From assembly GCA_009993955.1 (NCBI GenBank), contig JAACSL010000002.1:124001-188000 (forward strand): a stretch of DNA of 64,000 nucleotides, in the 5' to 3' direction. Below the pieces are notes generated by a model. The model saw nothing but the letters and a program-made list of their open reading frames with translations, ran no database searches and had not been told where the DNA came from. Every line of letters starts with the position of its first letter. Within the stretch, counting starts at the first letter, position 1. Positions 4,842-8,872 of this stretch are shown in pieces. The position numbers and the translations under genes were made by a program. This stretch comes from Paraglaciecola sp. (GTDB lineage: Bacteria; Pseudomonadota; Gammaproteobacteria; Enterobacterales; Alteromonadaceae).

Positions 4842-5489
4842 TTAATGTCCTACCTTTGCGGCCATTTCTAGGCGCAGTAGTCTGGCACTCAGACGCTCAC
4901 TGGCACTGCGTAATTGATCGACCTCATCACTAAAATGCGCCAGTTCTGTCGCGCCAACGGCTAAACCATCGGCACGAAGCAGTTGTGCACTCAATTTGCT
5001 GCGCCCCGCTTCAATCTGGGTTTTTGCCTCATGCAACGCGCTGCGCGCCCCCACAAAGGTCTGATGGGCCAGCGCATCCCCCACGTATTGACTCAATTCC
5101 TCTTCCCAATCAATGTGCAATTCTTGAAATAAACTGCTGACACTTTGTGCCACATACATGTCACCCACCAGAATCAATTTTTGCTCTTGAATAAGCTGGG
5201 TCAACTTGCTGCTGTCGCGTAACTGCTGCAAGGTTTCGATATTGAGTTCCAGCATGCAACTGGCCTTAACGAGGTCATCAGGCTGTTCGACTATCGACAG
5301 ATCAATGCGCTGAGAAAATTGCAACAAGATTGGCCATGGCAGTTCGCGCAACCTAACTTGCAAACTCTTGCCTTGCAGCTTTTTTAAACGCGCCTGACTG
5401 TCAGGATCGAGGCCAATGACATGATTGAGCAAACGCTCAACGTTGGCGCTGAGAAATTGAGCCATGGGCATCTTAGAATTTATAGCCAC
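4842..5489 (-). CDS. ubiJ: Ubiquinone biosynthesis accessory factor UbiJ (SCP2 domain)
   Basis: Up to 215 residues. The N-terminal half (about residues 15-120) has the SCP2 sterol-carrier-like pattern with [21 protein letters not shown]; the C-terminal half is helical, with a coiled-coil-like end ([21 protein letters not shown]). UbiJ binds the lipid quinone intermediates inside the soluble Ubi metabolon and partners with UbiK. The upstream ATG at 5489 overlaps the ubiE end by 17 bp; an in-frame ATG at 5471, just past the ubiE stop, would give MPMAQFLS and 209 residues, so the start is uncertain. Position between ubiE and ubiB confirms identity. Confidence 0.92.
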
Positions 5490-6261
5490 GATGCAGGGCT
5501 ACAATACCGCCCGTTAAATTTTGATAGGTCGTTTGTTCGAAACCGGCATGTTCCATCATCGCTTTTAATTCTTCTTGGGGCGGATGCATACGGATGGATT
5601 CAGCGAGGTACTGATAACTGTCAGCATCGTTGGCCACCAGCTGACCAATTTTGGGCAGCAAATGGAAGGAGTACAAATCGTACGTTTTGCTCAATAGTTC
5701 GTTGCTGGGTTTGGAAAACTCTAATACCAACAAACGCCCACCGGGTTTTAACACCCTGAACATGGACGCCAAGGCTTTGTCTTTATCGGTAACGTTGCGT
5801 AAGCCAAATGCAATGGTAATCACATCAAAGGTATTGTCTGGAAACGGTAATTCTTCGGCATTGGCTTGCACATAATCGACATTGCTTACAATCCCCAAGT
5901 CGCGCAGTTTATCACGCCCCACTTTGAGCATAGCCTCGTTAATGTCGGCCAAAATCACTTTGCCGCTCTCACCGACAATGCGCGAAAAGCGAGCGCTTAA
6001 ATCACCCGTACCACCTGCCAAGTCAAGCACCTTATGCCCTGAACGCACGCCACTGCAGTCGATGGTGTAACGTTTCCACAAACGGTGAATACCAAGGGAC
6101 ATTAAGTCATTCATGATGTCATATTTGGCGGCAACCGACTGGAAAACCTCTTTTACCAAGGCCACTTTTTGCTGAGTCTCTACCTGTTTGAATCCAAAGT
6201 GGGTGGTAGTCGGCGTATTTTCGCTGTGTGGCTGTTCTGTTTGTGGAGCGTGGTCACTCAT
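5473..6261 (-). CDS. ubiE: Ubiquinone/menaquinone C-methyltransferase UbiE
   Basis: 262 residues from ATG 6261, chosen because AAGGAAA lies just upstream; the frame is open further to 6309 but without support. It is a class I SAM-dependent methyltransferase with motif [16 protein letters not shown], the UbiE signature [26 protein letters not shown] and the second signature [17 protein letters not shown]. UbiE adds the C-methyl group to the benzoquinol ring in ubiquinone (and demethylmenaquinol) synthesis. It is the first gene of ubiE-ubiJ-ubiB and overlaps the earlier ubiJ start. Confidence 0.98.
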
Positions 6262-6398
6262 CGGTTTTCCTTGCACAGTGTTGGCCAATCGCTGGCCAAC
6301 ACCCATCACGATTACTCTAATAGGCGTAGTCTACTCAATTCTGAGCAGGCTCAACAGCTAAGAATGTGATTTGTTTTAGCTGTTTGCTCGACAAAAAC

Positions 6399-6779
6399 CT
6401 ATGCCAGGCGGTGCAATGCGCAGAGTTTATTGCCAGCAGGATCGCGCAAATAAGCCAGATAGAGTTTGCCATTTACGCCAGTTCGTACACCTGGGGGATC
6501 TTCACACGGTGTGCCACCGCTGGCTAAACCAGCTGCATACCAGGCATCAGCAAGTTCAGGGGTTTTGGCACTGAAACCAATCGTACTGCCGTTACCATGG
6601 CAAGCTGGCTCACCATTAATTGGCTTACTCAAGGCTAAAACGCCGCTATCTGTAAAATAAAAACAGCGACCTTTTTCATCCATTTTTCCCGGTTTAAAAC
6701 CCAGCGCCCCCAAGGTGGCATCGTAAAATGCTTTGGACTGCTGGACATCATTGGCACCTAACATAATGTGACTGAACAT
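6399..6779 (-). CDS. VOC family protein (glyoxalase/bleomycin-resistance fold)
   Basis: 126 residues, a single VOC unit made of two beta-alpha-beta-beta-beta modules: MFSHIMLGANDVQQSKAFYDATLGALGF at the start and YLAYLRDPAGNKLCALHR at the end, the usual second metal-ligand region. The family includes glyoxalases, dioxygenases and metal-resistance proteins, so the substrate cannot be named. The AAGGAA ribosome site precedes the ATG. It stands alone between ubiE and the repeat-flanked insertion, and would have been the neighbour downstream of the glycosylase gene before the insertion. Confidence 0.9.
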   Translation of the reverse strand: MFSHIMLGANDVQQSKAFYDATLGALGFKPGKMDEKGRCFYFTDSGVLALSKPINGEPACHGNGSTIGFSAKTPELADAWYAAGLASGGTPCEDPPGVRTGVNGKLYLAYLRDPAGNKLCALHRLA

Positions 6780-6897
6780 CGTTTTTCCTTAGTTAACAAA
6801 AACATACACAGTAAATCAGGACTGGCTGGCATAACCCAATCATGATTTTTTTTGGATCACCATAAGCGGTAAGGATAATCTACCCCTCAAGCTCATC

Positions 6898-6968
6898 GCT
6901 TAAACGAAATTATCACCCACGCTATTGGCTAGCGTAATACTTAGCGCCTGTAAGGAAAGACCACTCTG
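6898..6968 (-). repeat. 71-bp direct repeat, distal copy (duplicate of glycosylase 3' end)
   Basis: This stretch matches 8181-8251 at 70 of 71 positions, in the same orientation, 1283 bp apart. It equals the last 22 codons, stop codon and 2 further bases of the DNA-3-methyladenine glycosylase gene at 8183-8872, but here has no gene body upstream. The only difference (position 6936 versus 8219) changes ATC to ATT, a silent isoleucine change if read as the gene. It is best read as the displaced original 3' end of that gene after an insertion. Confidence 0.95.
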
Positions 6969-7047
6969 CGTAGTCTTTGAGATAACTTGTTTACGTTTTT
7001 TAACGAATAGGTCAACGGTCTATCGATGATAATTGTCTCGGTTATTG

Positions 7048-7752
7048 TTAGTTTGAAATCACCAATGCTTTCTCAGAACCGATAACCCCTAGAATAAGGC
7101 CATGGTATCTGCCTTGGTCGGTATAGATATGCAACATCCCGCCGTTAACAAATTTTCCCAAACTTTCATTGCTACTTAACTTATCAAGCGCCAAATTGAC
7201 ATGCTCGAAGTCTTCCGACGAAACAAGCACTGCGCACAATGACTCTGCGCAGACCGCAGCAGAATTGTCTAAGCCGCTCGTATTTTGCAAGTAACTATTT
7301 ACTGTCTGGTCAATGCTGTATTCAGTCTCAAAACTAATATGGTTTTTGTTATCTGATAGCCGTAATGTTTCTAAAAAATCTGTGACTTGTGCATATGACA
7401 TATTTTCAATTTTTTCACTTTGTAAAATATGCCTGTGTCCGTCCGTTTGCAAAACTTCGCCTTCTTGAAGTCGCTTCTCACCTGTCGGAGGAGACAAGGA
7501 TTCGATATCGCTCAAATTTTGCTGATTCTGATCTTTTAGACCAGCGAACGTTTCCGCAGGTTGTGTGATTTCCTTCTCGATTCCACTTCTCTGGCTCTCA
7601 CTATTTTGCTGGTGATCAAATTCACGCCCGTGATTCTGCTCGGTTGTTTTTGTGAAGACTGATTCACCTTCGTCTATTAAAAAATAGTTTGTACCAGAAA
7701 TAACAAAGATTATTAAAAACAGCGTAAAGAGTATCCGTAAAGATTTTCTCAT
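7048..7752 (-). CDS. Single-span membrane or exported protein of unknown function (cassette cargo)
   Basis: 234 residues. It begins with a positively charged start and a hydrophobic segment (LRILFTLFLIIFVISGTNYF), giving an N-terminal anchor or uncleaved signal. A long polar Gln/Glu/Ser-rich linker (about residues 30-110) leads to a compact C-terminal domain (about 115-234) with a CAESLC cysteine pair that could form a disulfide outside the cytoplasm. A GAGGTG ribosome site lies upstream of the ATG. I do not recognise the family. It lies within the repeat-flanked segment, downstream of the small Cys-rich gene and probably co-transcribed with it. Confidence 0.7.
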   Translation of the reverse strand: MRKSLRILFTLFLIIFVISGTNYFLIDEGESVFTKTTEQNHGREFDHQQNSESQRSGIEKEITQPAETFAGLKDQNQQNLSDIESLSPPTGEKRLQEGEVLQTDGHRHILQSEKIENMSYAQVTDFLETLRLSDNKNHISFETEYSIDQTVNSYLQNTSGLDNSAAVCAESLCAVLVSSEDFEHVNLALDKLSSNESLGKFVNGGMLHIYTDQGRYHGLILGVIGSEKALVISN

Positions 7753-7814
7753 TTCTGCACCTCAAAGTAATTTTCAAATAAAAGGGCACAAGTGCCCTTG
7801 AATGCTTTGGTCAT

Positions 7815-8036
7815 CTATGGATCTTTAGGGGCTACTGGAGCTTGGCGTTTCCAAACATGTCCACCACAACAATCTGAAACGTTTCCATCTTCATCCACTA
7901 CACAAGTATTGTCACACTTGAACGTACCTTTAGGTGTAGTAACCGTACTTTCTGCAAATGTAAGCATGCTAGTTGCTACAAGCATCCCACCCAACAGAAA
8001 AGAAGCCGAACTACATATAATCGTTTTTCTATTCAT
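7815..8036 (-). CDS. Small secreted cysteine-containing protein, unknown function (cassette cargo)
   Basis: 73 residues from ATG 8036; a longer frame to 8093 is open, but the signal peptide and the GGT ribosome site fit the inner ATG. Residues 1-28 (MNRKTIICSSASFLLGGMLVATSMLTFA) form a clear signal peptide. The mature part of about 45 residues holds CDNTC and DCCGG, four cysteines that could form two disulfides or bind a metal, and ends in a basic, proline-rich tail. No family recognised. It is the first gene of the inserted segment; its promoter would lie in 8037-8180. Confidence 0.65.
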   Translation of the reverse strand: MNRKTIICSSASFLLGGMLVATSMLTFAESTVTTPKGTFKCDNTCVVDEDGNVSDCCGGHVWKRQAPVAPKDP

Positions 8037-8180
8037 ATAATGATTACCTTTATTTTGGGTTATCAGATTTGCTAAGAATAAGTCCCTCAGCAAAGCAAAG
8101 CAAAGGTAAATAATAGACTCGAATAGATCAAGAAATAAGGTAAATTATTTTAACAATTTCAACCCTATTTTTTCTACCTA

Positions 8181-8251
8181 GCTTAAACGAAATTATCACC
8201 CACGCTATTGGCTAGCGTGATACTTAGCGCCTGTAAGGAAAGACCACTCTG
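8181..8251 (-). repeat. 71-bp direct repeat, gene-proximal copy (functional glycosylase 3' end)
   Basis: Partner of 6898-6968. It holds the codons for the final 22 residues and stop of the glycosylase gene plus two bases after the stop. Inside it, 8201-8219 is an inverted repeat CACGCTA-TTGGC-TAGCGTG (7-bp arms, 5-bp spacer), reminiscent of a tyrosine-recombinase core site. The other copy has lost one base pair of symmetry at 6936. Identity ends sharply at both edges (8180 and 8252). Confidence 0.95.
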
Positions 8252-8872
8252 TTGTTGCCATGTATTAAAGCACTGCTGAATGGCTTGCAGACTGCGTTTA
8301 GACTGCGCAGAGCCACTGATGATGTTGTGCTGGCGGAAATAGCCCTCAACATCTTGACTCAGTAAAAAGGTATCTTTGCCCATTGCTCGCAGCATATATG
8401 GGCCGGTGTTGCCCCCCAAACGTGCGCCATGTTTTTTTAAATAGGCCCACAAACCAATGATGTCTGCGCTTGGCCAGTTGGCCACAAGCCTAGCAAAACT
8501 GCCGTGCTCGCGACGCACTGCAGCAATCATCATGGCATTTTCTCGAATGGTTTTTACCTTGCTGTAATTGCGAATAATACTCGGGTCTTGTGCTTTGCTT
8601 TCAAGCATTTCATCTGGGATCAACAGCAACTTATCGATGTCAAACCCCCAGAATACACGTTCAAAGTCTGGCCATTTGTTGCGCACTACACGCCAAACAA
8701 AACCAGACTGAAAGACTTTTTTGCTCATTTCAGCCAAAAAGCGATCATCACTCAAGGCCGCCACTTGCTGATTACTCAGGGGTTGACTGACAATCTTTGC
8801 TAAGGCGACAGGCCCACCTTTGCGCTCACAAGCCCGTTGATAAATCCCTTGGTATGTCTCTAGCGCTGACAT
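8183..8872 (-). CDS. DNA-3-methyladenine glycosylase I family protein
   Basis: 229 residues. The central part resembles Tag-type glycosylases: DDRFLAEMSKKVFQSGFVWRVVRNKWPDFERVFWGFD and the following IIRNYSKVKTIRENA block match the helix-hairpin-helix region that excises 3-methyladenine. The N-terminal zinc Cys/His of enteric Tag is not evident, so this is the diverged COG2818 branch; substrate range is uncertain. Its ATG directly abuts the prlC stop (TAAATG), so it is probably translated by coupling. The last 22 codons lie in the 71-bp repeat, meaning the present C-terminus was supplied or copied during the insertion event. Confidence 0.85.
   Translation of the reverse strand: MSALETYQGIYQRACERKGGPVALAKIVSQPLSNQQVAALSDDRFLAEMSKKVFQSGFVWRVVRNKWPDFERVFWGFDIDKLLLIPDEMLESKAQDPSIIRNYSKVKTIRENAMMIAAVRREHGSFARLVANWPSADIIGLWAYLKKHGARLGGNTGPYMLRAMGKDTFLLSQDVEGYFRQHNIISGSAQSKRSLQAIQQCFNTWQQQSGLSLQALSITLANSVGDNFV

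Follow-up and report, generated by a model that had tools for sequence, protein, structure and literature searches.

A two-gene insertion behind tag in Paraglaciecola and related cassettes at gene 3' ends in Alteromonadales

Introduction

Bacterial genomes commonly show small differences in gene content, many of which lack an explanation. Phages and islands integrate at the ends of genes through an attachment site that carries the 3' end of the target, and tycheposons and PICMIs, which are integrative elements or satellites located at gene 3' ends, restore the end of their target and leave a direct repeat. Minimal mobile elements of Neisseria are alternative gene cassettes between two conserved genes and come without an integrase. 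The locus described here lies in a stretch of 64,000 nucleotides of Paraglaciecola sp. (contig JAACSL010000002.1, positions 124,001 to 188,000; hereafter the window), and resembles tycheposons and PICMIs in that the 3' end of the target is restored and a direct repeat is left; however, no recombinase or att core was found here, the unit measures only 1.2 kb and several unrelated targets are used. Unlike the minimal mobile elements of Neisseria, it has duplicated gene ends, which are not known to be part of their definition.

In Vibrio cholerae, homology-facilitated illegitimate recombination has been proposed for T6SS immunity-gene arrays built by effector displacement (PMC5361080, which also mentions orphan rhs/cdiA 3' modules). 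The likeness consists of an incoming module that is anchored in a conserved stretch, a resident 3' end that is shifted behind the new cargo, and repeated events that lead to arrays. In contrast to V. cholerae, the anchor is here the conserved 3' end of a housekeeping-type gene (tag, a PqiA-like gene or a flavodoxin gene) that continues to serve its own function, and the cargo is neither effector nor immunity partner to the anchor gene. By analogy, the recombination picture proposed for the Vibrio immunity arrays would be extended here to ordinary genes. Furthermore, PMC1643837 and PMC3031569 (credit: Nobusato et al. 2000) describe restriction-modification genes inserted with long target duplication, in which, as here, the cargo lies within a long direct repeat of the target that varies in length. 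Our cases differ from these in that restriction genes are lacking, the copies are located at gene 3' ends and the flavodoxin locus suggests a donor-borne end. According to a survey of small variable segments (PMC2884548), 10-18% of these are flanked by direct repeats, mostly shorter than 30 bp. Among the matches listed in the literature search, cassettes at the 3' ends of housekeeping genes in Alteromonadales were not found in titles or abstract openings.

The inserted unit behind tag

On the minus strand of the window, the gene order is prlC-like, tag, orfB, orfA, glyoxalase-like and ubiE-like, where the names prlC and ubiE are our assumption. The tag gene (8183-8872, minus strand) encodes a protein of 229 amino acids that belongs to the DNA-3-methyladenine glycosylase family (PF03352, E 1.6e-14), and its closest named records come from an uncultured Alteromonadaceae bacterium and from Paraglaciecola. 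The repeat search detected a direct repeat of 71 nt at 6898-6968 and 8181-8251, with 70 of the 71 bases identical and a spacing of 1283 bp. Self-BLAST of the window returned this pair as the sole direct repeat passing the filter (30-400 bp, at least 68% identity, within 8 kb, E<=1e-5), and its E value of 1.5e-21 rules out a chance origin. The gene-proximal copy (8181-8251, minus strand) comprises 69 bases that form the last 22 codons and the stop of tag, followed by 2 bases past the stop, while the distal copy (6898-6968, minus strand) is a stray, non-coding duplicate of this end, and the single mismatch between them is, by reading, synonymous in the tag frame. The preliminary description had given the repeats at the same coordinates and assigned the two copies in the same way, and both statements agree with the repeat search and with the ORF at 8183-8872.

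Between the copies lies the AT-rich inserted unit of 1212 bp (6969-8180), the GC content of which is 38.5%, whereas the window has 45.3% and tag 47.5%. Its longest ORF is orfA, which stays under all family cut-offs (Pfam, NCBIfam), and no recombinase was found in the unit. The earlier picture of an inserted two-gene cassette at the 3' end of a protein gene that remains whole, with no recombinase of its own, thus holds. Beyond the distal copy follow a glyoxalase-family gene (6399-6779, minus strand, assigned by family match), which in G017 also sits between tag and ubiE, and a gene that we take to be the ubiE homologue (5473-6309, minus strand).

An integron-like hairpin in the 71-mer was considered and judged unlikely; the 71-mer forms a 7-bp stem, yet folds no better than shuffles, and the single-strand folds of the 71-mer and of the 51-mer of G081 (see below) are unremarkable (z -1.17 to -0.26). 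The window sits in a contig of 223,828 bases within a 4.16-Mb draft genome of 82 contigs, and in about 283 kb more of this genome no gene-end copies beyond the window pair were found. On the same contig, a presumed HipA/HipB-like gene pair lies between 209-bp repeats (83%) beside a tRNA-like stretch (L204:13079-15357).

The cargo genes

Both cargo genes are on the same strand as tag. The product of orfA (7048-7752, minus strand) has 234 amino acids and is predicted to be exported, with a hydrophobic N-terminus and a region with a C-x4-C / GG motif, and orfB (7815-8036, minus strand) encodes 73 amino acids from its ATG, a Cys-rich product with a signal-peptide-like start that is predicted to be secreted. 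Neither product reached the cut-off of any Pfam or NCBIfam family or matched a PADLOC or PHROG family at E<=0.1, and the structure predicted for orfA from one sequence (mean pLDDT 47.9) was unusable. Our guess, based on the exported and Cys-rich products, is that the cargo most likely serves as an accessory module of the surface or of secreted peptides.

With the window genome counted throughout, orfA was detected in 14 of 395 family genomes by single-protein search, in 30 of 395 by profile, and, in a sample of 394 genomes from the order, by profile in 21; judged by this distribution, it is a scattered family. The smaller gene orfB occurs in 4 of 295 family genomes, the window genome included; G032 and G149 have it next to an orfA homologue, as does G672 by reading. 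In G672 (L173), the orfB-orfA-like pair adjoins a presumably transposase-like ORF and a dispersed repeat of 118 bp that has 10 matches in this genome. A phage or plasmid origin was pursued with the tag end, tag and orfA and gave no confirmed match: orfA matches nothing in viral contigs, phages or plasmids, the C-terminus of tag matches nothing in viral contigs or phages, and neither a 30-mer of the tag end nor tag itself has a confirmed match in viral contigs.

The tag locus in relatives

The genus sample comprises 22 genomes, of which 20, including the window genome, have a strong tag match, and the loci of 19 relatives were compared. The distance from the tag stop to the aligned ubiE start is 96-191 bases in 9 of the 19 and 0.8-7.5 kb, with intervening genes, in 8, and in the remaining 2 ubiE lies outside the stretch examined. 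A hand count over 80 wider tag loci, which are named records and overlap with the 19 congeners, placed ubiE within 436 bases in 34 and 0.8-9.5 kb away in 13, whereas it was not seen downstream within the stretch examined in 33. Since the single-protein search found orfA in none of the 20 other congeners listed and the tag-ubiE gap is shorter than 200 bp in 9 of 19, the unit of the window is, by comparison at the level of congeners, an insertion behind tag.

Repeats around the tag end, direct or inverted, were found in 5 of the 80 loci, and two of these are direct copies with the gene whole. In P. marina D3211 (L060), positions -94 to +91 of tag are copied 2.0 kb downstream (188 bp, 91.5%), and the duplication brackets other cargo, namely DUF4304-like, DUF695 and UPF0158 genes. 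Among the 25 codons before a frameshift in these copies, 4 differ in amino acid, which has the look of decay after duplication. Glaciecola UBA1851 (L085) carries an old copy of the tag end (128 bp, 70%) 135 bp downstream. The other three repeats are inverted and lie at or just behind the tag end; in P. arctica A3R16 (L054), the tag end runs straight into an inverted copy of itself (43 bp, 93%), and this hairpin may act as a terminator. Where the tag-ubiE gap is wide (8 congeners), a tag-end copy is present in P. marina only.

The preliminary description had suggested that relatives be searched for empty sites and for other cargo at the same 3' end, and this comparison bore it out in part: tag itself offered short tag-ubiE gaps and, in P. 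marina, other cargo at a duplicated tag end, and the gene used in G081 offered empty sites in two congeners. The arrangement that would have contradicted the proposal, both genes and both repeats in all relatives, was not what the relatives displayed.

The same cargo family behind other genes

The cargo family was also found beside a different gene. In G081, which belongs to another genus, an orfA homologue (23% identity) that reaches no family cut-off lies in a unit with 1303-bp spacing, flanked on both sides by 51 bp from the 3' end of a PqiA-family gene (96%, 49 of 51), ending at the stop. In two congeners of G081, namely G142 and G114, the PqiA-like gene is immediately followed by the counterpart of the sequence that lies beyond the distal copy in G081, and these two are empty sites for the G081 insertion. 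The exact 71-mer of the window, which the preliminary description had suggested to search for next to different genes, was not found beside any other gene in 196 family genomes.

In total, 43 loci of the orfA family (14, 15 new and 14 new) were tested for a repeat spanning the gene, and a score of at least 33 was reached in 6 (the window, G081, G093, G214, G025 and G672) and in none of the other 37. The flank repeat of G672 (118 bp, score 90) is the dispersed repeat with 10 genome matches and was dropped; a match in L233 is a contig-end artefact, L244 is under the threshold, and the orfB-only loci L165 and L166 are outside the 43. In the control set, 7 of 515 ORFs of similar size reached 33, three of which are themselves cargo of gene-end copies. 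Flank repeats are thus enriched around the orfA family (5 of 43 vs 7 of 515, Fisher p 0.001, or 0.006 without the window), where the control set is rough, as it consists of same-locus ORFs, unscreened for dispersed repeats, with flanks of 1500 bp, compared with 1000 bp for the first 14 orfA-family loci. The 5 include two weak cases, G093, whose flank repeat (53 bp, 81%) has no tie to a gene end, and G214, in which the match falls in the inner part of the gene. In G025, the only genome of its genus in the sample, a duplicated terminator-like hairpin between convergent genes surrounds the orfA-family gene.

G093 also carries (L169:12290-15107) two downstream copies of the 3' end of a gene taken to be sucD, with one MerR-like and two lipoprotein-like genes between the copies, and the outer copy includes a terminator-like hairpin; this locus looks like a gene-end cassette array. 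Across 1.91 Mb, 11 direct-repeat pairs were found, 4 of which are copies of gene 3' ends around cargo, while the other 7 (L080, two in L095, three in L109, and the flank pair of G093) are not, and some of them touch gene 5' ends. In addition, the 11-mer CAAGCTCATCG abuts a repeat copy both at 6888-6898 of the window, where it lies outside the unit and has its last base in common with the copy, and in G081 (L157:10586-10596), where it lies inside the unit. It occurs 6 times in the 2.2 Mb examined, and the coincidence could be due to chance.

A flavodoxin gene end in a third genus

The most telling of the loci is a flavodoxin gene end in a third genus, where the gene is present in 31 of 31 genomes. 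In 19 of them, 0-38 bases separate its stop from a convergent gene, presumed to be cysZ-like and measured at its aligned end; in 11 the distance is 0.7-8.4 kb, and in the remaining genome the cysZ-like gene was not seen. Copies of the flavodoxin 3' end were found at 3 of the 11 loci with intervening genes (G214, G374 and G303) and at none of the other 8. Those of G214 and G374 bracket an orfA-like cassette, and that of G303 brackets a 7-kb cargo. This cargo is Rhs-like, extends from 0 to 7.2 kb behind flavodoxin (L280), and owes its label to reading, with no HMM match. The cassette gene of G374 is, by reading, plainly like that of G214, yet it is absent from the 30 profile matches. In the 393 kb around flavodoxin, three of the 4 direct-repeat pairs are flavodoxin copies.

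The copy of G374 spans positions -281 to -21 of flavodoxin (93.1%), and that of G303 positions -166 to -5 (81.5%). Most of the differing codons are synonymous, 10 of 15 in G374 (over 86 codons) and 13 of 17 in G303 (over 46 codons, with five codons at the alignment edge, all of which change the amino acid, omitted), and the copy of G214 is too decayed to count. For the greater part of their divergence, both flavodoxin ends of G374 and of G303 seem to have evolved as parts of a gene, and one of them therefore probably arrived with the cargo. Furthermore, the last codons and the terminator-like sequence beside the cassette are common to G374 and G214 and were not seen in the other 29 genomes. 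The two gene ends of G374 are more similar to one another (93%) than to any other end (at most 84%), thus the donor would have to be very close. Behind the copies, a gene that we take to be polyphosphate-kinase-like is 95.3% identical between G374 and G303, compared with 82.1% for the neighbouring gene, which suggests that it was probably exchanged too.

Discussion

Since similar blocks follow other ordinary genes in some relatives, gene-end cassettes are a real and recurrent route by which genes are added, and this route probably consists of recombination through the end of the host gene itself rather than the work of a dedicated enzyme. For the window, the account that we favour, and for which we see about as much reason for belief as for doubt, is that homology-anchored recombination at the tag 3' end placed a horizontally acquired orfB-orfA cassette. 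The recipient would have taken up DNA from a close relative carrying the tag 3' end followed by orfB-orfA, and the incoming tag end would have paired with the resident one as an anchor. The other end of the incoming DNA would then have been joined illegitimately, as in homology-facilitated illegitimate recombination, or a circular DNA may have entered by a single, Campbell-type crossover, and the resident 3' end would have been pushed to the far side of the cargo. Under this account, tag would survive intact, as its 3' end is either provided or matched by the incoming DNA, and donor-recipient homology would stop near the stop codon, which is where the copies end.

An end that lies in a homologous gene can be seen in the window, P. 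marina, G081, G374 and G303, each of which has gene-end copies. A donor-type end next to the gene may be reflected in the mostly synonymous differences and the cassette-linked tail at flavodoxin, whereas the window copies differ at one base only. The copies extend from -69 to +2 and from -94 to +91 at tag and from -281 to -21 and from -166 to -5 at flavodoxin, and cover 51 bp to the stop at the PqiA-like gene; these variable edges, together with the fact that no recombinase was found in the unit or noticed in the other inserted segments read, speak for recombination that uses the gene end as an anchor and less for a fixed attachment site. On the other side, a donor carrying tag-orfB-orfA was not found, and with a one-base difference nothing in the window separates a donor end from a fresh duplication. 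The decay-like differences in P. marina, the close ends of G374 and the fact that most insertions have no gene-end copy also count against recombination at gene ends; copies at one in 8 wide tag gaps and at 3 of 11 flavodoxin loci mean that these loci change by other means as well.

The preliminary description had preferred a minimal cassette moved in trans by site-specific integration. In this reading, a tyrosine or serine recombinase would insert minimal cassettes, its satellites, through an attachment site that carries the 3' end of the target gene. We consider this rather unlikely. The gene-restoring 3' ends, the empty sites, the fact that the tag and flavodoxin ends were used more than once and the enrichment of flank repeats around the orfA family (5 of 43 vs 7 of 515) speak for it, and recurrence at two genes and enrichment for a single cargo family are indeed also expected of a site-specific system, which weighs against plain recombination. 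The measured flavodoxin copies, moreover, all overlap at -166 to -21 and leave room for a core, and in the window as well as in G081 the 11-mer is adjacent to a repeat copy. However, its position outside one unit and inside the other speaks against this reading, the four targets (tag, PqiA-like, flavodoxin and sucD) are unrelated, and the boundaries and lengths of the copies differ even at a single target. No recombinase was noticed in the units read (family scans covered the window, the G081 cargo and the P. marina cargo), and neither orfA, searched against viral, phage and plasmid sequences, nor the tag C-terminus, searched against viral and phage sequences, gave a match; a recombinase acting in trans is thus not supported. 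A broader version, which we consider doubtful, would make housekeeping 3' ends integron-like docking platforms of Alteromonadales, at which a recombinase acting in trans adds recombinase-free cassettes, each with a fresh gene end, and pushes older cassettes and their ends outward into arrays, with orfB-orfA as a dedicated selfish passenger.

Alternatively, both copies could be the recipient's own, produced when a transposition-like or end-joining event made a staggered break of about 50-200 bp at the gene end and inserted the cargo. The near-identical copies with abrupt edges in the window (70 of 71) and in G081 (49 of 51) fit such a direct target duplication equally well, and the empty sites of G081 and the duplicated terminator-like hairpin around the orfA-family gene of G025 are in line with it. 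It also has a precedent in the restriction-modification genes of Helicobacter (PMC1643837, PMC3031569). The flavodoxin locus argues against it, as the copies of G303 and G374 differ mostly at synonymous positions and the gene-proximal tail is common to two cassettes, which indicates that one end probably came with the cargo. We know of no enzyme for insertion with long target duplication at gene ends, and regard this alternative as decidedly improbable. An assembly artefact or an unrelated local duplication is scarcely credible: the genome is a draft of 82 contigs, but the contig has 223,828 bases, the cargo is distinct, and parallel cases exist in other assemblies, one of them with empty sites. 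Recombination anchored in the gene end accommodates the flavodoxin copies, which resemble the gene ends of a donor and a recipient, as well as or better than a site-specific recombinase acting in trans.

To conclude, one cargo family has been found behind unrelated genes, accompanied by duplicated gene ends, empty sites and stacked insertions at two loci, and the gene-end footprint can be searched for in any genome collection. If plain recombination is the true mechanism, foreign genes would enter genomes through the ends of genes, and the host gene would stay intact.
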